A DNA stretch of 64,000 bases, from the NCBI RefSeq assembly GCF_018304765.1, contig NZ_CP072643.1, forward strand, positions 620,001 through 684,000. The letters are read 5' to 3'. Shown piece by piece: positions 16,441 to 30,595 of this stretch. Origin of the DNA: Chloracidobacterium sp. N (GTDB lineage: Bacteria; Acidobacteriota; Blastocatellia; Chloracidobacteriales; Chloracidobacteriaceae). Made by a program: the position numbers and the translations under genes. The first letter of the stretch is position 1. Each line of letters opens with the position of its first letter. The notes under the pieces were generated by a model. It was given only the letters and a program-made list of their open reading frames with translations. It was not told where the DNA came from and made no database searches.

Positions 16441-16587
16441 CCCTGGGAGCGCGGGCGTCCCGCCCGCAGAGTGGTCATGTAATGTAATAGCGGGCTGGAA
16501 GTCCGCGCTCCCAGGCACTGCCAATCATCTTTCAGATTCCTGTTGCAGCGTAATCATCCTGCGGGCGGGACGCCCGCGCTCCCAGGG
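16441..16587. repeat. 147-bp element with perfect 29-bp inverted ends (REP/MITE-like)
   Basis: Bases 16441-16469 and 16559-16587 are perfect reverse complements (29 bp, core GCGGGCGTCCCGCCCGC). A related partial copy lies inside at about 16488-16516. The element sits between the VOC gene and ctaA, and its right arm forms the last codons of ctaA. It looks like paired REP-type palindromes or a small non-autonomous element. Confidence 0.75.
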
Positions 16588-17542
16588 TAGCGGGTGTCAC
16601 CGGCTCGGCATCCTGACCAAGCGCCGCCGCAGCCAGCAGCACCAACGCCACCCACAGGGCATCGGCAAAAAACAGGTGAATAAGCTGCATCCAGATAGGC
16701 GCCAGCAACCAGACGTTGATGATTCCCAGTACGAATTGCGCGCCCACGATGGCGATGACGACCGCAGACATCCGCGCCGTGGCGGGGCCCGTGCGCAGCC
16801 GGGCGGCCGCCATGACGATGACGGCGCTCGCCAGCACGGCCGCCACCGGATGGAGCCAGCGGAGTTTGACCGTGAAATGCGCCAGTCCCGAAAACTCTTC
16901 GGCAATCCCCTGCGCCAGTGAAGTGGCCGGAAACAGCGTGTCGCCCAGCGCCGCAATCGCGCCCGTGACGCCGACCACGAGCGCCGCCACGAAGGACGCC
17001 AACAGATGGCGGACGGTCCTTTCGTGGCCGGACAACCGCACCGGCGGAAAACCGCTGATCCAGTAGGCCGTCAGGGTCAGCGCGCCAAGCAGCAGAAACG
17101 TGTTCACCAGATGCACGGACATATAGACCGCCCGCGCCACCGAGCGGTTGTCGGCCACAAGTTCCAGCTTGACAAGTAACGCGCCAATGAGCGCCTCGAT
17201 GAGGATGAAGGCCAGGGACCAGCCGGCCGCCCGGCGGACGTGATGCCCGCGCGCAAAGCGCCGGAACGACCAGATCACCAGCGCCACCACACCCAGCAGG
17301 GCAATGCCGCTCGTGGCCCGGTGCATAAACTCCACGAACGTGGCGAACTGTCCCGCCGGCGGGACGACCTCGCCGTTGCACAGCGGCCAGTGACTGCCGC
17401 AGCCGTCGCCGGATTTTGACGCCCGGACGTAAGCCCCCCAGACGATCACCAGCACATTCCACCCGACCACGCCCCAGGCAAAACGGCGCAACCGGTCTTC
17501 AGCCGGTGCCCCGGCGGTCAATCCCTTACGTTCACCTGTCAT
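16532..17542 (-). CDS. ctaA: Heme A synthase (CtaA/COX15 family)
   Basis: A 336-residue integral membrane protein with about eight hydrophobic helices. It oxidises the C8 methyl group of heme O to make heme A for cytochrome oxidase. Family marks include RASKSGDGCGSHWPLC (the usual RxSGSGxxCPDWPLC loop), the heme-ligand His in EFMHR, and His residues in later helices (SVHLVNT, LRWLHPVAA, LIHLFFAD). The start overlaps the stop of the recombinase-like gene by ATGA, so translation is coupled. The last 15 or so residues ([16 protein letters not shown]) are encoded by a repeat element and are not a family feature. Confidence 0.88.
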   Translation of the reverse strand: MTGERKGLTAGAPAEDRLRRFAWGVVGWNVLVIVWGAYVRASKSGDGCGSHWPLCNGEVVPPAGQFATFVEFMHRATSGIALLGVVALVIWSFRRFARGHHVRRAAGWSLAFILIEALIGALLVKLELVADNRSVARAVYMSVHLVNTFLLLGALTLTAYWISGFPPVRLSGHERTVRHLLASFVAALVVGVTGAIAALGDTLFPATSLAQGIAEEFSGLAHFTVKLRWLHPVAAVLASAVIVMAAARLRTGPATARMSAVVIAIVGAQFVLGIINVWLLAPIWMQLIHLFFADALWVALVLLAAAALGQDAEPVTPATLGARASRPQDDYAATGI

Positions 17543-18369
17543 ACGTTTGTCACTAAACCTTCTTCCGGTGCTTTGGCACGCGCGGCCCGGCGTATCATCT
17601 GGGGGTTGAGTGCCGGATAGTCAAGCAGTTCACCGTACCGCCGCACGAGCTTGAAGATGAAACGGGGCGTCAGGGAACGCCCCCCGACCGGACGGTTGGC
17701 TGCCGTGCCCTGAATGAGCGCCGCCTCCGGCCCAAACCCTTTGGCCAACCGACGCAACGGCAGATCGCGCCGCAGATAATCATCCAGCGCCACCTTGACC
17801 GCCGGCGACAACCCCACGGTACGCGCCCAGCGGGTGCCCCGTCCCACCTGAAGCCCCAGGCCGGTTTCCACAGCGGGACAGCGCACCACATCCTGCTGCC
17901 GGAGCAGGCAGATTTCGGACACGCGCAAGCCCAGCTCCCCAAGCAGCCGCAGCACACAGGCATCGCGCAGCCCAACCAGTGTACGCTTGTCCGGCAGCGC
18001 CAGAAGCGCCGTCAGCATCGGCGCATCGCAAACTGTTGTCTCCCGGCGACCGCGCGTGGAGGGGCCCACAATCCGGGCCGGGTTACGCTCCACCAGATGG
18101 TGCGCGGCCAGCTCGGTGTAGAACTTCCGCAGTGCCGTCAGCCGGACGCCAACCGTCGGCGGGGATACCCGCGCCAGCAGAAACTGACAAAAGGCGTTGA
18201 CATCTTCCGGTGTGGCATCCAGCCAGCCCTTATCCTGCTCCCGGAGCCAGGCATCGAACTGCACCAGCGCCGCCGCATAGACCCGCCGGGTCGTCTCTGA
18301 CCCCAGACGGGCGAGAAATGCCCACCGGCAGGCATCCAGCCTGCCAGCCGCCAGCCGGAGGCCGGTCAT
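17539..18369 (-). CDS. Tyrosine recombinase (XerC/D-like), C-terminally truncated
   Basis: A 276-residue protein. Residues 1 to about 90 match the SAM-like core-binding domain (YAAALVQFDAWLREQDKGW) and about 100-260 the catalytic domain, with the first Arg in ELGLRVSEICLLRQQDV. The HxxR motif reads QMIRR, so His is Gln, and the protein ends about 14 residues later without the Tyr nucleophile. It should not cut DNA by the normal mechanism. ATG 18369 overlaps the stop of the upstream membrane-protein gene (ATGA), and its own stop overlaps the ctaA start (ATGA). Such tight coupling suggests maintained expression rather than simple decay. It may act in DNA binding or regulation, or be a relic. 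Confidence 0.75.
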   Translation of the reverse strand: MTGLRLAAGRLDACRWAFLARLGSETTRRVYAAALVQFDAWLREQDKGWLDATPEDVNAFCQFLLARVSPPTVGVRLTALRKFYTELAAHHLVERNPARIVGPSTRGRRETTVCDAPMLTALLALPDKRTLVGLRDACVLRLLGELGLRVSEICLLRQQDVVRCPAVETGLGLQVGRGTRWARTVGLSPAVKVALDDYLRRDLPLRRLAKGFGPEAALIQGTAANRPVGGRSLTPRFIFKLVRRYGELLDYPALNPQMIRRAARAKAPEEGLVTNV

Positions 18370-18764
18370 CCGGCGGCTTCCTGCGCGCGCTGCCGCCGCG
18401 CCTGCACGAATGAGTTGATGCACAGGGCAAGCATCTCGCCGCAGATCAGCAGCATGCCGATTTGCAGCGCCAGCGCCAGCAACCGCGCGCCAAACGTGCC
18501 ATTCACCAGACTCATGACGATGGGAACAAGCCCGCCAACCGTACCGAGCAGGGCCACGGCCGAAGCCGCGTGCATGGCGTGTTTGCGGAGCGATTCGCGC
18601 AGCGCCAGCACGCCACACAGCACAAGCAGCACGCCAAACGCACCCGGTATCAGTGCCGTCCTGCCGCTGTTGGCCGGGTCCTTGAGTACGTAACCAATCA
18701 CACTCAACGCCATCAGGGCAGCGCCGTTGGCAATCGAAAGCAATGGCATCGGTAGGGACTTCAT
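18366..18764 (-). CDS. Small four-helix membrane protein
   Basis: A 132-residue protein with about four hydrophobic segments (about 8-28, 37-55, 66-88, 94-116) and a basic C-terminus (QARRQRAQEA). KHAMHAASAVALLG between helices two and three resembles small TMEM14-like bacterial membrane proteins, but I am not certain of the family. It is the first gene of a coupled trio with the recombinase-like gene and ctaA. Function unknown; proximity to ctaA hints at a membrane or respiratory role. Confidence 0.65.
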   Translation of the reverse strand: MKSLPMPLLSIANGAALMALSVIGYVLKDPANSGRTALIPGAFGVLLVLCGVLALRESLRKHAMHAASAVALLGTVGGLVPIVMSLVNGTFGARLLALALQIGMLLICGEMLALCINSFVQARRQRAQEAAG

Positions 18765-18896: not shown

Positions 18897-21800
18897 CTAC
18901 CGCCGGGGTACCTCCCGCACGCGCAGCGTCGGGTCGCCCAACAGCGTCCACGACCGCCGGACTTCCAGGCTGTTCGTCCCCAGCTTCGCACGCCGGATGG
19001 CATCGCCCAGACGCGCGGCCGGCTCCAGCCCGTACAGGGCATCGAGCAGCCCCACATTCGCCCCGTGCTGCTCTGTGCTGCCCGTCAGCGACGACGACGT
19101 CCACGTCGCCACCGCCCCGCCCGGCGCCAGCACCAGCGCCTTGCCCAGGCTGGTCGTGTACAGGTCGTGGTGAAAACCGTTCAGGCAGGTCATCCCGACG
19201 ACAATCGCCGGCTGCCCCGTGTTCATCAGCCCGGCCGCATCGGCGCTGGTCAGAAGGTTCTCGGCCGCCCAGTTCTGGGTTGAACCGTGCCCAACGTAGT
19301 TGACCAGCCCCGCTCCGCTGTTGAAGCCCGCCAGCACGGCCGCCCGCGCCCCGGCCGCACCCAGCACACTCAGCCGGATGGGCGTCACCTGCGCCGGATC
19401 GGGCGCCAGACCGATGATGTCTGTCGCCGCCTGGTCAAAATCGCCGCCGTCGTCAGGATTGTCCGCCACGACCACCACCCGCTGCTTCCAGTCGGCCGCG
19501 CCGGCCCGCTCATAGGTCAGTATCTTGCCGATGACAATCTCCGCTTCGGCCGGCGTCCTGACCGGCAACCGCCCAATGGCTAGCTGTGCCAGTCCCGTCC
19601 CGCCAAAGTCGCCAAACCAGTCGTCCACGGCCGTTTCCAGCGTGCCGACCGCCAGCAGCTTCGTCGGAATGAAGTGCCCGCCAAAGCCCAGATAGTCGCG
19701 CGGGTCAAAGGTCGCATTCCCCATCAGCAGCACATACCGCGCCGGCCGCGCCCAGCGCAAAGCCGCCGTCTCCAGAAACGCCCGCACGGCGGCCGTGGAG
19801 GGCGCGCCATAGCCCCACTCGTCATAGACATCCGTGATGTCCACGACGACCGTCCGCAGCCCTTCCGCCTGCCGCGTCCGGGCCAGCCGTTCGGCAGCCG
19901 GGCGGAAAGCGCCGTGGGTCAAAATGACGAAATCGGCCGCCATGTCCGTGCGGTGCCAGGCTGAAGGCGTGTTGGCTTCGACCTGCGGCGACCACATCGC
20001 CCCCGTTGTCGTCAGCAGGATGTCCCGCCCTGCCGCGGCCCCCAGCATCGCCGTCTGCCCCATCATCCGCACCGGAAGCTGCACCGGCGCCTCCGGCTGC
20101 GTGATGTCAAAGGCAACAGCCGGAGCCGTAAAGCCTGTCACCTGCAGCGTGTGCCGCCCGCCCGTGCGTGGTACGTGAACCAGCAACCGGTCATCCGCCG
20201 CCTGAAGCTGCCGGGCATACTCGACCGTCAGCGTCTTGACCAGGTTGACATCCCCGGCTTCCGTCGCCTGAAGCGTCACGGTATTCGCACCGTTGATGAC
20301 CTGTTCGGCCGGCACGGTCCACGTCGCCTGCCCCACACTCCGCCCGGTGTACGTCACCGCGCCAAGCGGCTGCCCGTTCCACAAGACGTTCACCGTGTGC
20401 GCGCCGAGCGAGACGCCCTGCAGCTCGACGCTCACCTGCGCCGGCTCGCCGCTCGCCGTCGCCGGATCACGTACCACGATGTCCTGCGCTACGGGGCTGT
20501 TGGTGACGACACTGCCGAAGAAGTTGTCCTCGTCGCCGTTGAGCAGCGCCGCAAAGTAGATGGTCTTGTCGGCGCGCGTCACCCGCGAGCGGAAGTGCTG
20601 CAATGTCGGGCGCAGCATGGGCGCGCCAGCGCCCGGCCCCACCCGGTTGCCCGGTGTCCGTCCCTCGACGAGCCAATAGACCCGCTCGCCGCTATCCGGC
20701 GTGTCGTCGGCCACGCCGTAAAACTCGATGCCCTCAGCCGTCACCCGCAGCGGCACCTGCCGCCCGTGGGCATACAGTTGCAGCCGCTCCCGATCAGCCG
20801 TCGGCGACAGCCCCGCCGCCGTCAGCGCCCCAAACGTCACCCGCTGCCACCCCGTCCGCGTCACCCGCAGCTTGACCGCCGGCTGCGCCGCCAGCCACTG
20901 CTGCGTCTCCAAATCGCCCGGCTGCTCCGGCCCGACGCCAGCCCCGGCCTTGTACCGGGAAGCCTCCTTGCTGCCGGTCAGTTCGGCACCCGCCGGTGCG
21001 GCATCATCCTCAATCTGCCGCCCCAGCCGGGACGTGCTGTGTCCCAGCAACGGCGAGTTCTTCAGCAACGCCAGCGGCACAGCCTCGCGCGTCTGGCGCA
21101 GGGTGACAGGGCCGTACCACTGCCGCGAACCATCCAGATCGTAGGCTTCCAGCCAGTAGATGGCGCTGCCCTTTACCAGCCGCGCCGTTTCATCGCGCCA
21201 CGTGTAGCGTTGCCCGGCCGTCAGGGCATCACTGGTCAGCAGGGCGCTGCCGGCAATGAGTTCCGGCGTCAGGCGTTCGCGCCGCCCATCGCGTTCGCGC
21301 CAGAGGTGAAAGCCCAAATGCGCGCTTTCGTAACCGGTCGCCCACTGCACCAGCACATCACCCGTCGCGTAGCGCGTTGCCTCAAAGTCGGTCAGGTCAA
21401 CCTTTGTGGGCACCGGCTGGGGACTGCCTCCGCACTCAGTGCAGCCAGCCCGGTTTACAGCCAGCTCGCAGAGCGGGCCGAAGGTGTAGGTCGCCCGCTC
21501 CTGGGTCGTGTTGCCGGTCTCGTCCCGCCAGACGGCGGTCGTGCCTTCCGGCGTCCCGCCCGGCGTCCCCGTGACATTCATCACACAGGGTGAGCCTGTG
21601 GTTGGTGAAACCCGGATGACGTAGAACAGCGAAGCGGCGCTGTTGGCGGCAATTGTGCCGGGCGTCCAGGTGATGCTCCCCGAAGTGGCGTCGTCGGCCG
21701 GCTGGGTAAACGTCCCCTGGGTTGCCTGCGCCCCGCCGTAGGTGGACTCATTGGCGTAGAAAACTCCTGTCACGGTGGGGATGTTTGCCACCACGCGCCG

Positions 21801-23105
21801 CGTCCGCGTGCCGATGGTCGTGCCGTCCAGCACGATGTCATGATCGGTCGGGTTGACGATGTCCACCCGCACCCGGTAGAAGGTCGTCTGACCGTTACAC
21901 GGTGGGTTCGGGCCATTCGTCGGATTGCCAATGTGAAACAGGCGCTGCGTCATATAGGGCTTCACCGGCGCAGTCGTCGCCCCCGCATCCCCCGGAAAGT
22001 AAACCCGGAACTTGTCCCCCTGCCGCCAGTTGGCAAGAGTGATGTTGTTGCCGGAAGTGTTTGGCACGGCGGCAGCGTGGTTGCCGATGTAGTAGGTGAT
22101 GTGGTTAGCGCTGCCGCCGTTGATAGTGATGTTGTTACTCCAGATACCGTAGTCCACAGCGCTGACGCCGGTCGTCCACGGACCAACCACAAAGCTCCTC
22201 CACTCCCCATTTGGAGACAATGTTTCAGTACCAGTAGGAATGTTGCGGGTGTAGCCCCCGGTCCGACTCACGAAGGTGATTGCGCCAGTGCCACTGGAGG
22301 CGTCCCAGTCAAACTCGTTGGCGCGGCACGTACAACCGCTGGTGATGTAGGGGTAGTAGTTCCACGTAATGGGAGGTTGGCGCTCAGTATTCTGCGGACC
22401 AAGATGGATGCCCGGATCGAAGTACATGTTCAGCCCGCGACCGGTCGTGGGACCACCCAGGTTCTGATCCCGGTTGGCCCCGGGATCAAGCGTGTGCGCC
22501 GCCACCCCGAAGGGATTGACGCCGCTATTACCTCCACCAGGCTGAATGATGCGCAGCTCCCAGTGACCGGCCGCCGGATTTTCCCTCGTGAAGAAGTTCT
22601 TCCACTGGTTGTTGGCGGCTCTGGTGTCGGGGCCGTTCGTGCCCACGGCCGAGTTGTCACCCTGGGTGAAGTTCAGCCCTGTATCGCTCAGGGAAGTATT
22701 GAGAGAGATGGATGTACCGGCGGGATCAAACAGGGAGTAGTTTGTTGTTATGTTCCCCACCCGGTTGTCAAAACGGTTCACCCCGGACGGCCCGCCTGTC
22801 GAACCGTAGTCAGCGTCGTAAATGTCAATCGTCAGCCGCGAAGTGCCGCTCGGCACCTCGATGAACACCGAGTAGTACGTGTTGAGACCCGGCGAAGCCG
22901 AACAACCCACAAAATCACCATTTCCCAGGGGTGCGTTGCTGTCGCGGACGGTGATCATCTGCGCGTTGAGCGGGGTTTTGGCGGCCCGCACTTCCGGCCG
23001 CCTGACCACCGGCGGCACCACCCCTGCCAGTAACCCAACCAGCACCAGCACGTAAAGCGGTCTGACTGTGGCCCAAAAACGAGTCCTATTCATCTGCGGT
23101 TTCAT
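18897..23105 (-). CDS. Gingipain-type C25 family cysteine protease, secreted
   Basis: A 1,402-residue protein from ATG 23105, which has GGAGAAG upstream and overlaps the S26-like gene stop (ATGA). A signal peptide or anchor covers about residues 10-45. The N-terminal 600 residues are beta-rich, with DUF11-like strands. A middle part contains FATRYATGDVLVQWATGYESAHLGFHLWRERDG, and the last 400 residues hold the peptidase_C25 domain with catalytic His1273 (NYVGHGST) and Cys1307 (VGMTCLNG). A T9SS-type C-terminal sorting domain is not seen. As the last gene of the radical-SAM/PqqD operon it may process or accompany the candidate peptide. This link is inferred from overlap only. Confidence 0.82.
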   Translation of the reverse strand: MKPQMNRTRFWATVRPLYVLVLVGLLAGVVPPVVRRPEVRAAKTPLNAQMITVRDSNAPLGNGDFVGCSASPGLNTYYSVFIEVPSGTSRLTIDIYDADYGSTGGPSGVNRFDNRVGNITTNYSLFDPAGTSISLNTSLSDTGLNFTQGDNSAVGTNGPDTRAANNQWKNFFTRENPAAGHWELRIIQPGGGNSGVNPFGVAAHTLDPGANRDQNLGGPTTGRGLNMYFDPGIHLGPQNTERQPPITWNYYPYITSGCTCRANEFDWDASSGTGAITFVSRTGGYTRNIPTGTETLSPNGEWRSFVVGPWTTGVSAVDYGIWSNNITINGGSANHITYYIGNHAAAVPNTSGNNITLANWRQGDKFRVYFPGDAGATTAPVKPYMTQRLFHIGNPTNGPNPPCNGQTTFYRVRVDIVNPTDHDIVLDGTTIGTRTRRVVANIPTVTGVFYANESTYGGAQATQGTFTQPADDATSGSITWTPGTIAANSAASLFYVIRVSPTTGSPCVMNVTGTPGGTPEGTTAVWRDETGNTTQERATYTFGPLCELAVNRAGCTECGGSPQPVPTKVDLTDFEATRYATGDVLVQWATGYESAHLGFHLWRERDGRRERLTPELIAGSALLTSDALTAGQRYTWRDETARLVKGSAIYWLEAYDLDGSRQWYGPVTLRQTREAVPLALLKNSPLLGHSTSRLGRQIEDDAAPAGAELTGSKEASRYKAGAGVGPEQPGDLETQQWLAAQPAVKLRVTRTGWQRVTFGALTAAGLSPTADRERLQLYAHGRQVPLRVTAEGIEFYGVADDTPDSGERVYWLVEGRTPGNRVGPGAGAPMLRPTLQHFRSRVTRADKTIYFAALLNGDEDNFFGSVVTNSPVAQDIVVRDPATASGEPAQVSVELQGVSLGAHTVNVLWNGQPLGAVTYTGRSVGQATWTVPAEQVINGANTVTLQATEAGDVNLVKTLTVEYARQLQAADDRLLVHVPRTGGRHTLQVTGFTAPAVAFDITQPEAPVQLPVRMMGQTAMLGAAAGRDILLTTTGAMWSPQVEANTPSAWHRTDMAADFVILTHGAFRPAAERLARTRQAEGLRTVVVDITDVYDEWGYGAPSTAAVRAFLETAALRWARPARYVLLMGNATFDPRDYLGFGGHFIPTKLLAVGTLETAVDDWFGDFGGTGLAQLAIGRLPVRTPAEAEIVIGKILTYERAGAADWKQRVVVVADNPDDGGDFDQAATDIIGLAPDPAQVTPIRLSVLGAAGARAAVLAGFNSGAGLVNYVGHGSTQNWAAENLLTSADAAGLMNTGQPAIVVGMTCLNGFHHDLYTTSLGKALVLAPGGAVATWTSSSLTGSTEQHGANVGLLDALYGLEPAARLGDAIRRAKLGTNSLEVRRSWTLLGDPTLRVREVPRR

Positions 23106-23527
23106 GGCGTCTTCTCCAATACAGGCTTCAAAAAAGGTTTCCACCGCGCACAACGCTGCCCGAACCGCCGGACGGCCCCGGCCAGCCGTGCGCGGCAGGA
23201 ACGTGGCGGCAACAGCACGCGCCCCAGAATCGCCCGGCGCGGCACAACATCGGTTGCCTGCCCCTGGGCGTCGCCGCGCAGTACAAACCACGTGTCATCA
23301 GCAGCGGAACGAACTGCGATGATGCGATGCGCAATCAGCCGGCCGTCCACCTGCGCCAGAACGATTTCCCCACGCCCCGGCTGCTCATCGGCGCCCAGCG
23401 GCCGGACGGTAATCGTCTCGCCGTCGGCAATGGTCGGCGCCATGCTGCGCCCCGGCGCAGTGAACCGCACCGGACAGCCCTGCGCCAGAAGACTTCGGAC
23501 CAGCGTCGTCCAGCAGACATCGGTCAT
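23102..23527 (-). CDS. S26/S24-like signal-peptidase-type serine protease without membrane anchor
   Basis: A 141-residue protein. GRSMAPTIADGE carries the nucleophile Ser28, and DGRLIAHRIIAV carries His67 where bacterial type I signal peptidases have Lys, so it resembles the SipW/ER type. FVLRGDAQGQATDVVP is the usual next box (RGD). There is no N-terminal transmembrane helix, unlike true signal peptidases. Its ATG overlaps the kinase-like gene stop and its stop overlaps the C25 protease start, so all three are translationally coupled. A leader-peptidase role for the nearby candidate peptide is plausible but unproven. Confidence 0.8.
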   Translation of the reverse strand: MTDVCWTTLVRSLLAQGCPVRFTAPGRSMAPTIADGETITVRPLGADEQPGRGEIVLAQVDGRLIAHRIIAVRSAADDTWFVLRGDAQGQATDVVPRRAILGRVLLPPRSCRARLAGAVRRFGQRCARWKPFLKPVLEKTP

Positions 23528-24390
23528 GGCTGCATCCTCCGTACGTAGTCCACAACAGCCGGCGTCGGACGAAACACGAGTCCGTAACAGGGAACGGCCG
23601 TCACGAGCCGTTCCAGAAAACCAGCCGTGAAATCGAGCGCCGCCGCGTCATAAAAAGGCGGAAAAGCACGGGCAAACAGCCGGGCCGCCGCCAGCCCCGG
23701 CGGTAGCGGGCGGGCCGCGTCTTCGGCGCCCTTGCACAAAATGAACAGGGCGTTGAGAGGCGTGGCAGCCGGCGCGGCAAACTCGCCTTCCCCGTGCCAC
23801 GGCGTGCCAAACATCAGCCACTGCCCATCGCACTGGCGGACGATGACCCGGTCATCGCTAAGTACCGTCGCCCCGGCCCGCGTCCAGAGCCGGGCGGTCG
23901 TCGTTTTGCCGTCGCCGGACTGCCCGACAAAGAGGAACCCGCGCCCGTCCGTATCCACCACGGCGCAGGCATGGAGTTCGACGCCCCGCCCACGCGCCAG
24001 CAGGTTCGTCACCAGCAGCTCATCCACGGGATATTCCAGCGGCGACTGCATGGCGGCGATGACGGCCGGCAGGCGGCGATACCAGACGCAGCCGGTCTGG
24101 TAGGTCGGGGCAAACCAGGCAATGCGGTAGGGTTCAGGGCCAAAAACCGGTGAGGCAATGTCGTAGCGATAACCACCGGCGGCCCGGTACAGCGTCCACA
24201 TCCCGCCGGAGGCAAAGACCAGTTCCGTCGGCTCCGGCGGCGGCACGGCTTCGTCCAGCCAGCCAACGCGGATCGTGGCGTCTGCCGGCGCGTCCTCCCA
24301 CGGTGCAACGAAGCGAGCGGCCGGGCCGTTGATTTGCAGGGGCAAGCCGAGGCCGGTGGCGTCCACGGCCAGCCGCAGCCCGCCAATCAT
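23524..24390 (-). CDS. HPr kinase-like P-loop protein
   Basis: About 288 residues. A Walker A motif GQSGDGKTT (156-164) sits in the context LHACAVVDTDGRGFLFVGQSGDGKTT..LLSDDRV, the HPr Ser kinase C-terminal fold often found with PqqD and radical SAM genes in RiPP-like loci. ATG 24390 is preferred because the longer frame to 24504 overlaps the candidate precursor gene; no strong ribosome-binding site decides it. In related clusters such proteins are thought to phosphorylate or bind the peptide; the substrate here is unknown. Downstream overlap with the S26-like gene is ATGA. Confidence 0.75.
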   Translation of the reverse strand: MIGGLRLAVDATGLGLPLQINGPAARFVAPWEDAPADATIRVGWLDEAVPPPEPTELVFASGGMWTLYRAAGGYRYDIASPVFGPEPYRIAWFAPTYQTGCVWYRRLPAVIAAMQSPLEYPVDELLVTNLLARGRGVELHACAVVDTDGRGFLFVGQSGDGKTTTARLWTRAGATVLSDDRVIVRQCDGQWLMFGTPWHGEGEFAAPAATPLNALFILCKGAEDAARPLPPGLAAARLFARAFPPFYDAAALDFTAGFLERLVTAVPCYGLVFRPTPAVVDYVRRMQP

Positions 24391-24418
24391 CAACCGGGTT
24401 TGCCGGGAACAGAGACGT

Positions 24419-24625
24419 TCAGGAAGCAATGGAGAAACACGGACCAAGAAATGAACATGAACTAGGGTTGCTTGGCCCACTGGTGCTGGCAGTCTTGCAG
24501 GCACCTAGCACGGCTTCCTCAGCCCGCAACTCAACCCGGACGATGGATGGTTTGGTGTATGGACGCCGCGCCAGCTTTTCCTGCGGCTCCGGCGCCGATG
24601 CGGATGATGAATACGGTTCGGTCAT
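24419..24625 (-). CDS. Candidate RiPP precursor peptide
   Basis: A 68-residue peptide. The N-terminal half is leader-like: RRPYTKPSIVRVELRAEEAV. The C-terminal part, LGACKTASTSGPSNPSS then CSFLGPCFSIAS, is rich in Ser, Gly, Pro and has three Cys (ACK, SSC, GPC). A YxKPxIxxVxLxxEEAVLxxCK pattern is what I expect of short putative precursors beside PqqD, radical SAM and HPr-kinase-like genes, but I cannot confirm this by search. It lies between the radical SAM gene and the kinase-like gene, on the same strand. A weak GAAGAAG precedes the ATG. It is not part of another gene. Confidence 0.6.
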   Translation of the reverse strand: MTEPYSSSASAPEPQEKLARRPYTKPSIVRVELRAEEAVLGACKTASTSGPSNPSSCSFLGPCFSIAS

Positions 24626-24730
24626 GGCTTCTTCAAAAGTGTGATTCAGAAGGCTAAATGTTGCGGGGTCTGGATAGAGCGGGGGCTGGACACATACACG
24701 TGAACGCGGTGAACAACAGAAGGCTGAACG

Positions 24731-25984
24731 TTACAGTGTCTGGGATGCCGCCGTCGGGTGTCCCTGAAGCACTGGCAAGGTCCGGCGGGGCTTGAACGAC
24801 AGGTCAACACCGAGTTCCCGCGCCCGGGCGCGCAAGGCCGCTACAGAAGCCTGGATGTCCTCGTAACGCTCGCTTCCCGGACGGTACTCGCACAGCGGGT
24901 TGGGCTTGAGGTCAAGCCCAAGCAGATAGGCACGCAGATGATTTGTCCGGCAGAAGAAATCCACGGCGGCTTCCTTGTCGCCGTTTTCCAGTTCGTTGAC
25001 GGCCGCGCAGCTTGTGCACATCGGGCGGATTTCACAGCTTGTACACTTGGCCGGACGGGTTCGGGGCTGCATGCGCACCCGCCGCAGAAACTGCTCCCAG
25101 CCCTCGCGGAAACTGCCATGGCGCAGGTCGTAGGTGTCCACCTGCGACAGCACGCAGATGGACATCTCGCCGTATGGGTTTACGGCAAAGGAACTGACAC
25201 CGCCGCCGCAGTCATAGACGGTGTTGGAGACATAGGGGGCCATGGCAGCCGTCCGGTAGCGGTCGTTGAGCGCGCGCCACTCGGCCATGCGGCGCGGATC
25301 GCGCAGGTCCAGCTCGACGACTTCTTCCGGCGTCAGGCGCACTTCCAGCGGCGACTGCGAACAGTCAACCCGTGGATTGATCATGCTGTCGAACTTGAAC
25401 GGCACACCCAGACTCTCGGCAAAGTCGCGCATGGCGAAGATTTCATCCTTGTTGATGGTCGTGCCGACGGTCTTGAGCTTGAGCGGCAGCCGGCGTTCAA
25501 GCAGCAGGCGGATGCCCTGGTGACAGCGGTCGTAGGAGCCGGGCACGCGGGTCAGCCGCTCATAGGTTTCGCGGGTGTGGCCGTAGAGCGTGATCTCGAT
25601 GGCAAAGGGACGCCATTCAGCCAGATAGTCGGCAATGCGCGGCGTCAGCAGCGTGCCGTTGGTGAACAGCGTGATGATAAAACCCCGGCGCCTGGCTTCG
25701 GTGTAGATGTCCAGAAAGTCCCGGCGCGCAAAAATTTCCCCGCCGGTAAAGAGCACCCACAGCGTTCCGGCTTCGGCAATTTCGTCGAAAATCCGCCGGT
25801 ATTCATCCAGCGAAAGCTCGCGCCGCCGGGCGGCGTGGTCGTTCATTGGCAGGTTGTTGTAGCAGTGCTGGCACACCAGCGGACAGCGGCGGCTCACCTC
25901 AAAGGTGGCTTCCAGCGGGATACGCCCGGCCAGCAGCCGCCCGTGCAACCGGCGGCTCAGTTCCGCGTAAGAGACGCTTTCCAT
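24731..25984 (-). CDS. Radical SAM/SPASM peptide-modifying enzyme
   Basis: A 417-residue protein from ATG 25984, which has GAGAGGGAAG upstream; longer in-frame starts run into the PqqD gene. The radical SAM cluster motif CPLVCQHC uses Cys34, Cys38 and Cys41; TGGEIFARRDFLDIY is the SAM-binding GGE segment. A C-terminal SPASM region has DCGGGVSSFAVNPYGEMSIC and CTSCEIRPMCTSC..FFC, enough Cys for auxiliary clusters. This architecture (PqqE/AlbA/anSME group) makes crosslinks or other changes on peptides. A PqqD-like gene sits 10 bases upstream, and a small Cys-containing peptide gene follows. Confidence 0.88.
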   Translation of the reverse strand: MESVSYAELSRRLHGRLLAGRIPLEATFEVSRRCPLVCQHCYNNLPMNDHAARRRELSLDEYRRIFDEIAEAGTLWVLFTGGEIFARRDFLDIYTEARRRGFIITLFTNGTLLTPRIADYLAEWRPFAIEITLYGHTRETYERLTRVPGSYDRCHQGIRLLLERRLPLKLKTVGTTINKDEIFAMRDFAESLGVPFKFDSMINPRVDCSQSPLEVRLTPEEVVELDLRDPRRMAEWRALNDRYRTAAMAPYVSNTVYDCGGGVSSFAVNPYGEMSICVLSQVDTYDLRHGSFREGWEQFLRRVRMQPRTRPAKCTSCEIRPMCTSCAAVNELENGDKEAAVDFFCRTNHLRAYLLGLDLKPNPLCEYRPGSERYEDIQASVAALRARARELGVDLSFKPRRTLPVLQGHPTAASQTL

Positions 25985-25994
25985 GGCTTCCCTC

Positions 25995-26294
25995 TCAGGC
26001 AGCCGAGCTGGCCGCGCAAGGAACCTCAATGATCCCGCTTTCCTCAAGTGCGGCCAGAAATTCAGCGACATCCTGCGCGGCCTGTTCCGGTGACACCTCG
26101 AAAGCCTCACAGAGCACCGCGCCGAGCGCAGCTACGTCTCCGGTTGTATCGAGCTGTGACCAGAGCAAGGCGGCCGTGTCGTTCAGGACGTAGATGGCAT
26201 CCAGATCAGCCGCCTGCCCGCGAATCGGGATCAATAGGGTTTCGTCGGCAATGCGGCGCGTCACACATGGAAGTTTTTTGACAAGGTTGCTCAT
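25995..26294 (-). CDS. PqqD-like peptide-binding chaperone
   Basis: A 99-residue protein. VTRRIADETLLIPI..DLDAIYVLNDTAALLWSQLDT matches the RiPP recognition element of PqqD, which holds the leader peptide for the radical SAM partner. The C-terminal helix region (SPEQAAQDVAEFLAALEESG) is typical. ATG 26294 is chosen for the fit to the domain start; the longer frame to 26399 adds sequence without family match. It is the first gene of the minus-strand operon and is separated from the radical SAM gene by 10 bases. Confidence 0.85.
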   Translation of the reverse strand: MSNLVKKLPCVTRRIADETLLIPIRGQAADLDAIYVLNDTAALLWSQLDTTGDVAALGAVLCEAFEVSPEQAAQDVAEFLAALEESGIIEVPCAASSAA

Positions 26295-26638
26295 AAGATT
26301 TTTCCAGCTTTCGGGTTGTTTTTTTATGAGTCTCACTTCATACCCATAAAGAGTTGCAATTGTGTTGCACCAGCTTGTCAGTCCAGGACAGTCTCCCAAA
26401 AAAAGTTCTCACCTCACTCAGACGCTTCTATCGGCAGGGGCGTCACATGCCTTTCAAAATTTTTTGCCTTCGGGCTTGCGCAACGCCACCTGCCAGCGTC
26501 AGAAACGCCCTGCCCCAGGCGAAACCGGGCATGATGGCTTTTGACTTGGCTTTTCACTGGTGCTTGGTGAGAATGGGCGCTTGTTTTCGCGCGCCGCCAC
26601 GGCGAATGCTGGTGGGGGATCGCTTCCAAATACGTTGG
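26295..26638. other. Divergent intergenic region upstream of the RiPP-like operon
   Basis: Between the PqqD gene (minus) and the kelch gene (plus). The part near PqqD (26270-26360) is AT-rich with T runs and is the likely promoter area of the operon, but I cannot name -35/-10 boxes with confidence. Short open frames here lack ribosome-binding sites. No repeat or RNA is seen. Confidence 0.5.
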
Positions 26639-29600
26639 ATGACGCTCTTAAGGATGACCTTGTTGATGTCTTCACGCCTGTTGACCCGTCTCGGTCTGGT
26701 TCTGATGTTGTGCCTGCATCCGTTGCTGTTGTCTCTCCCGCCCACGCTGGCGTCCGGTGGAACACCACGGCCACTGCGCCCTTCCCAACCCCCAGCGCAC
26801 ACCAGAACGGCTCCGACAACCCTTGCCCTTCCGGGGGCTGCACAGTGGCGTACACTCACACTCGATGAGCGGGTGCGTTACCGCCGGGCGATTGAACAGG
26901 TCTATTGGAAACGGCGGCGCTGGGAGGCCACGACACCCAAGCCGGCTTTCGACCGTCTCTTTTCCCAGCCGCAACTCCGCGCCCTTGTCGCAGACGAACT
27001 GTGCCAGCAGCACGCACTGGACCTGCTCTGGCATCACGCGCCAACGCCCGCCGAACTCCACGCCGAAGTCAGCCGGATGATGCGCCACTCCAAACAACCG
27101 GAAGTGTTGCAGGAGCTGTTTGCGGCGCTGGACAACGACCCCATTGCCATTGCCGAATGCCTGGCGCGGCCGGTGCTGGTCAGACAGCGGTTGCAGGCGG
27201 ACTATGCCCGTGACCGGCGGTTTCACGGCCGGCTCGAAGCCCAGGTGCGCCAGGCGCTGGAAATCGCGCCCGCGGTTGAGACGCTCTCCCGGCTGGGCGC
27301 GGTCTGCACCGAAGTCGAGTTCATCCGCCGTGACCGGCCTGAAGCCTTCGCGGTTGCCGACCTACGCCGCCTGCCGGTGTCCGGCGCGGACTGGGAACAC
27401 GAAATGGCCCGGCTTGCAGAACGCTTCGGAAGCCACCCGGCCAAACTGGCGCCCGGTATGGTGACGCCCCTGTGTGAAGACGACGAGCGGTTTTTCATTC
27501 AGCAGCTTCAGGCGATTGAGAGCGACCGGGTGCGGCTTGTCACAGCCGAATGGCGCAAGGTGGACTTCGATACCTGGTGGGCGCAGGTCAGGGCCAACTA
27601 CAGCCCCGTCATCCCGACAGTCTCCGGGTCGTTTCCAGAACTCCGTGCGCCGGGCGCAGTGGAAAGCGGCTTTCCCGAGGCCATTGCCGGCAACGACAAC
27701 CGCTGGGCGCAGGATGCCGGCGATGGTGTCCCGTCCGCGCGTTTCCGCCATACGGCAGTCTGGACGGGCGTCGAAATGATTGTGTGGGGCGGTTTCCGGG
27801 GGACGTTCAGCGGCGGCAGCCCGCTCAACACCGGCGGGCGCTACAACCCGATTACCGACACCTGGACGCCGACGCGCGTTGCCCCCAGCGCCATCGGCGC
27901 CACCGACGCCGCGCCAGCGCCACGGGTCAACCATACGGCCGTGTGGACCGGCACGCGGATGATTGTCTGGGGCGGCGTCAGCGGCACGCCGGTCAACTCC
28001 GGCGCACTCTACGATCCGGTCGAAAACAAGTGGACAGCGACCCGCACCGACCCCAGTTCATCCACGGCCAACGACGGCGCACCGGCCGCCCGGTTCAGTC
28101 ACGTTGCTGTCTGGCTGGCGCAGGCCGGGCGGATGGTTGTCTGGGGCGGCAACCTCAACTTTGTCGGCAGCATTCCCATCCCAACCAATACCGGCGGCGT
28201 CTATAACCCCGAAACCAACGCCTGGAGCGCCACGGCCACGACGGGCGCACCACAGGCGCGGACCGACCACGTGGCGGTTTCGACCGGAACGGCGATGATT
28301 GTCTTCGGCGGCGTCAACGCCGACGGCGGCCGCCTCAACAGCGGCGGCATTTATACGCCCAGCAACAACACCTGGACGGCGACAAGCACGACCAATGCCC
28401 CCGGACTGTTCACCCCCAGCGCTGTGTGGACGGGAACGGAACTTCTCGTCTGGGGCAGCGTGGCCGGCGCGCCAGCGCCGACCGTGGCCGGTGCCCGTTA
28501 CAACCCGGGCAACAACACCTGGACAGCCATTGCCACGGCCGGCGCGCCAACGCCGCGCGTCAACCAGAGTACCGTCTGGACCGGCACGGAAATGATTGTC
28601 TGGGGCGGGGCGGCGCTCGACGTACGCTTCAACGACGGTGGACGCTACAACCCGGCGACGAACACCTGGACGCCGGTCACAACGGTCGGCGCTCCGTCGG
28701 GACGTGAAAACCACACGGCCATCTGGACGGATGCCTACGCCGAACCGAACCAGAACGCCACGAAGTACATGATTGTCTGGGGCGGACAGGGCGGCGACGC
28801 CACCGGCGGCCGCTACGATCCCCTCACGAACACCTGGCTTCCGACGGCGACCACGCCCGTTCCGATCGCCCGCGAAGGCCACACAGCGGTCAACACCGGC
28901 GTGGAAATGATCATCTGGGGCGGTGCATCAGCCGGTGTGCGGACGCTGACCGGCGGGCGCTACAACCTCGCCACGGCCCAGTGGCTGCCCACGTCCACCC
29001 AGGGCGCGCCCGGCGCGGCGATCAACCTGCCGCCCGTGGGCCACACCGCCGTGTGGACAGGCAGCGAAATGATCATCTGGGGCGGACAGACCAACGCCGG
29101 CGGGCGCTACAACCCCGTCACGAACACCTGGACGCCCACCTCGCTGACGAATGCCCCCTCGGCACGGGAAGAACACACCGCCGTGTGGACGGGCAGTGAA
29201 ATGATCGTCTGGGGCGGACGTTTCACGAATCCGTCCAACAATGAGACCAACTACTTTGACAACGGCGGGCGGTACAACCCCGCAACGGATACGTGGGCGG
29301 CGACGGCAGCGGATGGTCGCCCCGGGCCGCGCTCCCGGCACACGGCCGTCTGGACGGGCAGCGAAATGATCGTCTGGGGCGGCGTGACCTTTGCCGACAA
29401 CCGCTTTTCCGAACTGCGCACCGGCGGACGCTACAACCCGACGACGAACACCTGGACGCCCACGCGCACCGATCCGACCAGCTCCGGCGGGACGGACGGC
29501 GCGCCGGATGCCCGTTTTGACCACACGGCCATCTGGACGGGCGACCGGATGATCGTCTGGGGCGGGGCGACCACCGCCGCCCGGGCGTTCAACTCCGGGG

Positions 29601-30595
29601 CGCTGTACAACCCGGCTGCCGACACCTGGGCGGCCACCTCCGCCAACGGCGTACCGTCGGCGCGTTCCGGCCACACAGCCGTCTGGACGGGCCGCGAAAT
29701 GATCGTCTGGGGTGACGCCGGCGCCACCGGCGGACGCTACAACCCGACGTTCGACTTCTGGCGGCCGGTCGAAACCGAGGGCGCGCCGGATTTGACCGCC
29801 AGCCACACGGCGATCTGGGACGCCACCCGCCGGCAGATGGTCGTCTGGGGCGGACGTGGCAGCGGCGGTGTCTCCAATGCGCTGGGGGCTTACGGGGCCC
29901 GGGGTGAACAGGGCGACACCGTGGGCATCTTCCGCCGGGGGCAGTTTTTCCTGCGCAACTCGAACACGTCGGGCAACGCCGACCTGGCTTTCGCGTTTGG
30001 TGCGGACGGCGACGTGCCCCTGGCCGGTGACTGGAACGGCGACGGCATCACCACCGTCGGGGTCTTCCGCAACGGCACGTTCTTCCTGCGCAACAGCAAC
30101 GACAGCGGCGTGGCCGACATTGCCTTTGCCTACGGTGGCGCGGAGGACATCCCGCTGGCCGGCGACTGGGACGGCAACGGCACGACGACCATTGGCGTCT
30201 ATCGCCCGGCCGAACGGACGTTCTTTCTGCGCAACAGCAACACAGCCGGCAACCCGGACATCGTCGTGGTCTATGGCGAGGAAGGCGACCGCCCGATTGT
30301 CGGCGACTGGGACGGCAACGGCACGACGACGGTTGGCGTGGTGCGCGGCAACACCTTCCTGCTGCGCAATGCCAACACCGGCGGCGATGCCGATCTGGTG
30401 TTCAACTTTGGCAACCCCGATGACAAGGTTGTGGTCGGGGACTTCGACGGCGATGGCGTGGATACGGTCGGCGTCTATCGCGTGCTGACGTTCTTCCTGC
30501 GCAACACCAACCTGCCCGGCACGGCTGACTTCCTGCTGGTCTATGGTGCGGATGGCGACGTGCCGCTTGTCGGCAACTGGGACGGGCAGTTGTAG
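26639..30595 (+). CDS. Secreted kelch-repeat and FG-GAP repeat protein
   Basis: About 1,318 residues. The start is uncertain: ATG 26639, 26654 and 26666 all give a signal peptide (MTLLMSSRLLTRLGLVLMLC). A helical domain of about 280 residues follows, with RYRRAIEQVYWKRRRW and AIAECLARPVLVRQRL. Then come about 14 kelch-like units, each with HTAVWTGxEMIVWGG and GGRYNPxTNTWTPT, presumably forming two propellers. Five C-terminal FG-GAP-like repeats (GDWDGNGTTTIGV..FFLRN) end the protein. The repeats match those at the left edge of the window. Likely extracytoplasmic binding; no catalytic motif is seen. Confidence 0.85.
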   Translation: MTLLRMTLLMSSRLLTRLGLVLMLCLHPLLLSLPPTLASGGTPRPLRPSQPPAHTRTAPTTLALPGAAQWRTLTLDERVRYRRAIEQVYWKRRRWEATTPKPAFDRLFSQPQLRALVADELCQQHALDLLWHHAPTPAELHAEVSRMMRHSKQPEVLQELFAALDNDPIAIAECLARPVLVRQRLQADYARDRRFHGRLEAQVRQALEIAPAVETLSRLGAVCTEVEFIRRDRPEAFAVADLRRLPVSGADWEHEMARLAERFGSHPAKLAPGMVTPLCEDDERFFIQQLQAIESDRVRLVTAEWRKVDFDTWWAQVRANYSPVIPTVSGSFPELRAPGAVESGFPEAIAGNDNRWAQDAGDGVPSARFRHTAVWTGVEMIVWGGFRGTFSGGSPLNTGGRYNPITDTWTPTRVAPSAIGATDAAPAPRVNHTAVWTGTRMIVWGGVSGTPVNSGALYDPVENKWTATRTDPSSSTANDGAPAARFSHVAVWLAQAGRMVVWGGNLNFVGSIPIPTNTGGVYNPETNAWSATATTGAPQARTDHVAVSTGTAMIVFGGVNADGGRLNSGGIYTPSNNTWTATSTTNAPGLFTPSAVWTGTELLVWGSVAGAPAPTVAGARYNPGNNTWTAIATAGAPTPRVNQSTVWTGTEMIVWGGAALDVRFNDGGRYNPATNTWTPVTTVGAPSGRENHTAIWTDAYAEPNQNATKYMIVWGGQGGDATGGRYDPLTNTWLPTATTPVPIAREGHTAVNTGVEMIIWGGASAGVRTLTGGRYNLATAQWLPTSTQGAPGAAINLPPVGHTAVWTGSEMIIWGGQTNAGGRYNPVTNTWTPTSLTNAPSAREEHTAVWTGSEMIVWGGRFTNPSNNETNYFDNGGRYNPATDTWAATAADGRPGPRSRHTAVWTGSEMIVWGGVTFADNRFSELRTGGRYNPTTNTWTPTRTDPTSSGGTDGAPDARFDHTAIWTGDRMIVWGGATTAARAFNSGALYNPAADTWAATSANGVPSARSGHTAVWTGREMIVWGDAGATGGRYNPTFDFWRPVETEGAPDLTASHTAIWDATRRQMVVWGGRGSGGVSNALGAYGARGEQGDTVGIFRRGQFFLRNSNTSGNADLAFAFGADGDVPLAGDWNGDGITTVGVFRNGTFFLRNSNDSGVADIAFAYGGAEDIPLAGDWDGNGTTTIGVYRPAERTFFLRNSNTAGNPDIVVVYGEEGDRPIVGDWDGNGTTTVGVVRGNTFLLRNANTGGDADLVFNFGNPDDKVVVGDFDGDGVDTVGVYRVLTFFLRNTNLPGTADFLLVYGADGDVPLVGNWDGQL

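Follow-up and report, generated by a model that had tools for sequence, protein, structure and literature searches.

The locus raises the question of what a gingipain-type (C25) protease is doing beside genes of a peptide-modification type, and whether all of them form one maturation unit. The window analysed is a stretch of 64,000 nucleotides from the genome of Chloracidobacterium sp. N (3.7 Mb, two contigs), in which a first-pass annotation had placed six minus-strand genes: a PqqD-like protein, a radical SAM/SPASM enzyme, a short Cys-containing peptide, an HprK-like protein, an S26-like peptidase and a secreted C25 protease. All six open reading frames were confirmed, and every cluster feature given below lies on the minus strand. 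The gaps measure 10 bp (PqqD to radical SAM), 105 bp (radical SAM to peptide) and 28 bp (peptide to HprK-like), and the last two joints, HprK/S26 and S26/C25, are both ATGA overlaps, as annotated. The nearest named relative of the radical SAM gene belongs to a Chloracidobacterium MAG (locus L004, 85% identity). A 1413-aa Kelch-repeat protein (26354-30595) is transcribed away from the cluster; downstream (16532-18764) lie a 132-aa ORF, a phage-integrase-like protein and COX15-CtaA, and ORFs similar by eye to these also come after the cluster in L004.

The same gene order was sought in other genomes, a check that the annotation had proposed. Scanning a single genome for each species returned 13 loci: 12 close relatives (L004-L015; by name 11 Acidobacteria-type MAGs and one Myxococcales, L009) and the distant L016, which has no peptide and was left out of the 12. 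Radical SAM, peptide and HprK-like genes follow in the same order in 12/12 close relatives. PqqD was found in 11/12 (the exception is L011, where the radical SAM gene begins at the contig edge), S26 in 11/12, and a whole C25 domain in 10/12, with L006 stopping at a contig edge; mapping of the six families at L009 showed neither S26 nor C25. Even sampling of the phylum (396 genomes) gave a radical SAM match (E<=1e-90) in 26 and a peptide match (E<=1e-3) in 37, and 40 stretches around these matches were mapped for the six families. Because the order recurs in relatives, the set is more than chance; an assembly of chance neighbours was rejected on this recurring order and on a C25 linkage above expectation (below). 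Relatives that lacked the peptide, or genes never found together, would have spoken against the annotation; both were looked for, and the relatives carry the peptide within the recurring set. A conserved precursor with leader and core adjoins modifying enzymes here and in relatives, and the proposed modification set of PqqD, radical SAM and small peptide has the look of a RiPP unit with the peptide as a conserved precursor-like gene. Neither the HprK-like protein (E<=1e-5) nor the radical SAM enzyme (E<=1e-30) was matched in plasmid records. Three peptide loci (L084, L091, L100) occur in a single genome, G351, and the stretch fetched around L084 showed no member of the other five families.

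The PqqD-like protein (25995..26294, 99 aa), the proposed leader-binding RRE, matches Pfam PF05402 with 60 bits (cut-off 23.4, E=2.8e-16), and its best NCBIfam matches are the lasso and PQQ PqqD models, none above cut-off. The radical SAM enzyme (24731..25984, 417 aa) matches PF04055 (69.1 bits, E=6.9e-19) and scores 13.7 bits against Pfam SPASM, below the cut-off of 21.5. Though this cut-off is missed, we assign a SPASM domain because its Cys positions are invariant: both the CxxxCxxC motif (C34, C38, C41) and C259, C277, C314, C317, C323, C326 and C345 are kept in 12/12 sequences, and the window enzyme thus has the two Cys signatures of a radical SAM/SPASM maturase. It reaches no NCBIfam cut-off, and its best-scoring solved structure is PqqE. 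A plain PQQ locus was rejected, as the equivalog cut-offs were missed for both PqqD (27.3 of 46 bits) and PqqE (71.9 of 381.35 bits). A Cys/Gly-rich C-terminal tail of the form GGCxSGGCGSC is seen in the radical SAM enzymes of L006-L013, L015, L077, L079, L081, L083, L085 and L087, and is absent from those of the window, L004, L005, L075 and L076.

Alignment of the small peptides, also proposed at first pass, revealed 17 invariant columns across 13 sequences. In the numbering of the window peptide (24419..24625, 68 aa) they include Y23, P26, L33, R34, E37-A38-V39-L40-G41, C43-K44, G50-P51, C57, C63 and S68. The leader motif YTKPSI (Y23-I28; 24542..24559) has the form [Y/W]xxPx[I/L/V], present in 50/51 peptides and of the same type as described RRE-binding motifs (PMC13381572, PMC12710340); L097, cut at a contig end, is left out of all 51-peptide counts. 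From the Tyr or Trp to the first core Cys there are 20 residues in 46/52 peptides and 21 in 6/52, and three Cys are found from the first core Cys onward in 46/51. Glu stands at Y+14 in 49/52 and Ala at Y+15 in 38/52. The C-terminal residue is Ser in 49/51 and Thr in 2/51; of 206 other proteins taken from these loci as a control, some of whose ORFs run off an end, 15 have a terminal Ser and 3 a terminal Thr. Both Thr-ending peptides come from one genome (G383): L103 has an HprK match and L083 has none, and the Ser-ending peptides of L084, L107, L110, L112 and L114 likewise show no HprK match in the fetched stretch. At L107 (3816-3992) and L112 (12085-12261) the peptides are of a divergent W-type (WxxP...CK...S) and adjoin histidine-kinase/response-regulator genes, with the other five families not found in the stretch.

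Since the cores have three Cys and few aromatics, we favour sulfur chemistry for the radical SAM enzyme, which would act on the Cys-containing core, most likely by forming Cys thioethers. The three core Cys allow, rather than indicate, thioether bonds of the sactipeptide or ranthipeptide kind. Aromatic cross-links are unlikely as the general reaction, since 21/51 cores lack Tyr, Trp and Phe altogether beyond the first Cys.

The HprK-like protein (23524..24390, 288 aa, with a GTG start also present upstream) scores 20.6 bits against Pfam Hpr_kinase_C, below the cut-off of 33.3; its assignment is supported by the fold, as the structure model (mean pLDDT 95.6) matches PEPCK and HprK structures. 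P-loop Lys162 and Asp179 are kept in 46/47 homologues. HprK-like kinases acting on RiPP precursors have been described for lasso peptides (PMC8498205) and for the linear polyphosphorylated peptides (LPP) known from the lpp cluster of Paenibacillus alginolyticus (Popov et al. 2026, PMC13381572). The reported targets differ: lasso peptides of the paeninodin type receive the phosphate on their C-terminal Ser (PMC8498205), whereas the LPP kinase acts at core Ser3 instead (PMC13381572), with the Bsf kinase likewise reported to target core Ser3. Given a cut after Ala38, position 3 of the cores studied here is Gly in 28/52 and Ser in 2/52, while a terminal hydroxyl is kept in 51/51; for this reason we predict from the alignment that the kinase phosphorylates the C-terminal Ser68 (codon 24422..24424).

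The S26/S24-like peptidase (23102..23527, 141 aa) passes the Pfam Peptidase_S24 cut-off (25.2 against 23.3 bits), its model resembles signal peptidase I and LexA folds, and its catalytic residues are conserved (Ser28 in 36/37, His67 and Asp86 in 37/37 homologues). In the LPP system, leader cleavage by the SipW-type peptidase LppS is reported to require the RRE in the assay and to be abolished by S29A, H68A and D93A, and the leader YxxPxVLxHQxIxFET to be cut after its final T, at Tyr+15 and with Glu just before (PMC13381572). As Glu at Y+14 and Ala at Y+15 match this offset, we place the cut by analogy after Ala38, the most likely site at which the window peptidase would remove the leader, leaving a predicted core of residues 39-68 (24422..24511). 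In eight relatives (L004, L007, L008, L011-L015) S26 and C25 are encoded in one ORF, and all eight fusions carry a hydrophobic, signal-peptide-like segment between the S26 domain and the remainder. A domain ahead of such a segment would stay on the cytosolic side, where leader removal would be its natural job, and we infer from this arrangement that the S26 domain is a cytosolic leader peptidase. An ordinary signal peptidase was rejected on the position of the domain in the eight fused forms, and also because the near-identical L075 protein has nothing hydrophobic after the domain. S26 likewise precedes a signal-peptide-like segment in seven loci of family f24 (L089, L090, L092-L095, L098); in L092, the f24 locus that was scanned, it is fused to a polysaccharide-export protein (Poly_export/SLBB). 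A response regulator adjoins HprK in L092.

The secreted C25 peptidase (18897..23105, 1402 aa, signal peptide assigned by eye) matches PF01364 with 243 bits (E=6.8e-72). Its catalytic domain (aa 1059-1396; 18918..19931) holds the His-Cys pair of the family, with the His kept in 27/27 homologues and the Cys in 26/27, the Cys of L088 lying beyond the fetched stretch. The closest solved chain is PorU (6za2, E=1.2e-22), and aa 809-1396 match positions 112-732 of the 1095-position PorU model with 233.9 bits, against a cut-off of 420. The position aligned with what we take to be the S1 Asp of RgpB is not conserved, and gingipain-style cutting after the invariant Arg34 or Lys44 was dropped because this position varies.

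That the protease belongs to the same translational unit, as the annotation claimed, is borne out by the ATGA overlap; many relatives, too, have C25 in the unit. Thirty-six genomes with a radical SAM or peptide match hold 44 C25 matches, of which 17 have a peptide match no more than 12 kb away against 0.26 expected under uniform placement (the genomes are related and not independent) and 27 are unlinked. The window's genus is represented by three genomes, and the sole C25 gene of each is the one in the cluster. C25 is linked in 23 of the 39 loci with a radical SAM match at E<1e-90; six end at a contig edge and 10 have no C25 match, so the protease is not needed everywhere. Two of these ten (L098, L100) have less than 5 kb left downstream and seven belong to f24 by our own tally. 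C25 lies 10.8 kb off on the opposite strand in L081, across the chromosome numbering start (as L115) in L076, before PqqD in L099 and L109, and before S26 in L104. Relatedness of the genes was compared between loci (L016, L101, L102, L105, L106 and L111 excluded): over 25 loci, C25 distances correlate with those of the radical SAM enzyme (r=0.90), HprK (0.93) and the peptide (0.83), and further pairs give 0.66 (radical SAM with S26, 22 loci) and 0.61 (PqqD with radical SAM, 24 loci). For each pair 0/2000 permutations were as high, with the species tree not removed. C25 is common in the phylum (136/396 genomes). As a counter-sample, 39 additional C25 neighbourhoods were taken, almost none of which had a linked peptide match; a radical SAM gene was nearby in 10, nine of these with PqqD, and absent in 29. 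This sample includes L130, chosen in the knowledge of an adjacent weak peptide match (9/38 without it), and excludes the wrongly placed stretch L139. C25 is thus a member of the unit, and many C25 genes do something else.

The closest published counterpart is the LPP cluster, described as comprising a discrete RRE, an HprK-like kinase, a SipW-type peptidase (LppS), an NTP transferase and an MsbA-like transporter, and as restricted to Bacillota (PMC13381572). The window shares the discrete RRE, the [Y/W]xxP leader, the HprK-like kinase and a SipW-type Ser-His-Asp peptidase; the core trio of RRE, HprK-like and SipW-type proteins is present by family resemblance, not by likeness to the LppB, LppK and LppS sequences. 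An NTP-transferase gene (PF14907) stands beside the related loci L089 and L100, that of L089 (NTP_transf_5) adjoining PqqD. The full LPP leader YxxPxVLxHQxIxFETxxS is not matched: YxxPx[I/L/V] and the Glu at Y+14 are found, but the H, Q, F, T and Ser3 are not. Since neither this motif nor the NTP-transferase and MsbA-like transporter genes occur among the six, and the window gave no ABC match, we do not class this cluster with the LPPs, although by analogy it may work like one with an added radical SAM step and C25 protease. LPP C-termini are also reported to vary, the transporter belongs to the LPP core set, and the main text of the LPP report does not contain "radical", "SPASM", "gingipain" or "Acidobacter" (PMC13381572). 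Relative to LPP, three things are new: the presence of a radical SAM/SPASM enzyme, that of a C25 peptidase resembling PorU, and the phylum.

The annotation had called both the HprK-like and the gingipain-type additions unusual, and this stands for C25 only, because RRE, HprK-like kinase and SipW-type peptidase form a published RiPP core (PMC13381572); neither the HprK-like nor the S26-like protein is the odd part, and what is unusual, besides C25, is to find a radical SAM/SPASM enzyme inside that core. Its suggestion of a distinct export route found no support, as a tblastn search of the window with three queries (an ABC, an HlyD-like and a TolC-like protein) detected no exporter gene. Elsewhere, an ABC exporter gene adjoins C25 at L078 (5682-7328), and another lies near the cluster with HlyD-like and TolC-like genes at L086 (1-6157; named by eye). 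Phosphorylated lasso peptides of the paeninodin and ThcoK/SyanK type share a PqqD-like B1, a YxxPxL-type leader, an HprK homologue and a C-terminal Ser (PMC8498205, PMC10368454), but the window has a radical SAM/SPASM enzyme instead, and a lasso cluster was rejected because no macrolactam cyclase (C) or B2 leader peptidase occurs among the six genes. PQQ and other radical SAM/SPASM RiPPs (sactipeptides, ranthipeptides) share the PqqD-like protein, the SPASM Cys pattern and the Cys-containing peptide; in contrast, the window adds a kinase, S26 and C25 and reaches no NCBIfam equivalog cut-off. With PorU and gingipains it shares the C25 domain with its His-Cys pair and, from aa 809, a PorU-like flank, and differs in that C25 is linked to a RiPP set and fused to S26 in the eight relatives. 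No cluster pairing C25 or gingipain with a RiPP was found among the literature matches listed, nor any work joining radical SAM, HPr kinase and PqqD, subscription journals being thinly covered in both searches; the main text of a review of RiPP leader proteases names no C25, gingipain, signal peptidase or S26 (PMC10885120).

Gene set, conservation, linkage, catalytic residues, leader motif and C-terminal hydroxyl can be read directly from the sequences, and from them we infer a scheme in its chemical steps, step order, export and C25 substrate. The PqqD-like RRE would grip the precursor through the YxxPxI motif, the radical SAM/SPASM enzyme would modify the core, most likely to Cys thioethers, the HprK-like kinase would phosphorylate the terminal Ser, and the cytosolic S26-like Ser-His-Asp peptidase would take off the leader, of which Ala38 is most likely the last residue. 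The product would leave through an exporter encoded elsewhere, and the translationally coupled C25 would be the final trimming protease outside the cell. We give this reading of the six genes as one RiPP-type maturation unit about an even chance. It is favoured by the set and order in relatives, the C25 linkage, the sole C25 of the genus lying in the cluster, the correlated distances, the S26-C25 fusions, a radical SAM-HprK ORF in L016, the leader motif (50/51), the C-terminal Ser/Thr (51/51), the described action of HprK-like kinases on RiPP precursors and the LPP precedent of RRE-dependent cleavage by a peptidase whose three catalytic residues are of the types seen here (PMC13381572). Counted against it are the 10/39 radical SAM loci without C25, the 27/44 unlinked C25 genes, the 29/39 neighbourhoods without radical SAM, the Ser3 target of the LPP and Bsf kinases, the lack of an exporter in the window, and the peptide and C25 locus L083, which has no PqqD, HprK or S26 match in the fetched stretch. 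The ORF in L016 (9955-11934, 659 aa, from an Omnitrophica MAG) contains both matches and adjoins two further radical SAM genes and a separate HprK-like gene.

Foremost among the other readings, and in itself unlikely, is that C25 acts as a surface transpeptidase like PorU and would join the modified phosphopeptide to an outer-surface partner, making the peptide a surface tag. PorU, described as a transpeptidase (PMC8545088), is the closest solved structure and its model covers aa 809-1396, and the S26 domain in L092 is fused to a polysaccharide-export protein; yet the PorU cut-off is missed, the type IX marker SprA_N was found in 0/18 genomes (no positive control scored), and such a transfer has no known acceptor. 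An improbable elaboration would make the locus a new Acidobacteriota RiPP class, a radical SAM-modified, C-terminally phosphorylated three-Cys peptide whose phosphate end is a handle and which is joined by a PorU-like C25 transpeptidase to a surface partner. If it held, some of the C25 peptidases in the phylum would count as RiPP enzymes.

The tight linkage and translational coupling of C25 would also fit a peptide that, made by PqqD, radical SAM, HprK-like and S26 proteins, regulates or inhibits C25 as the effector, and the core is conserved across the phylum beyond expectation for a diversifying antibiotic; the residue of C25 at the substrate-pocket site that determines RgpB specificity is variable, however, and we regard this reading as quite improbable. 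The same low standing falls to a PQQ-like cofactor or signal with a housekeeping role for C25 in release: PqqD, radical SAM/SPASM and a small peptide follow PQQ logic, PqqE is the best-scoring structure, and all three genomes of the genus carry the cluster in one copy, but its occurrence is patchy (peptide in 37/396 genomes), G351 has three peptide loci, and PQQ synthesis is not known to involve kinase or signal-peptidase-like genes. Least probable of all is that the unit ends with S26, and that C25 next to it serves some unrelated function. Its frequency in the phylum (136/396) and the ten radical SAM loci without it would agree with this, whereas the ATGA coupling, the single S26-C25 ORFs in eight relatives, the linkage in other gene orders (L099, L104, L109) and the 17/44 linked genes against 0.26 expected argue the opposite.

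The reading as one maturation unit would join two RiPP logics known separately, the radical SAM/SPASM route and the route of RRE, HprK-like kinase and signal-peptidase-like enzyme, and would add a protease family that the main text of the leader-protease review does not name (PMC10885120). Conservation of a C-terminal Ser/Thr, the spacing within the leader and the fusion of S26 to C25 make it sharply and cheaply testable, and C25 linkage offers a handle for more such clusters, as in the 10/39 further C25 neighbourhoods with radical SAM. The C25-linked radical SAM clusters L123, L142 and L151 have another peptide type, with short ORFs that by eye read YxxPx[I/V] ... EA[R/K]A ... two Cys and a C-terminal Ser; an HprK match occurs in L123 and L151.
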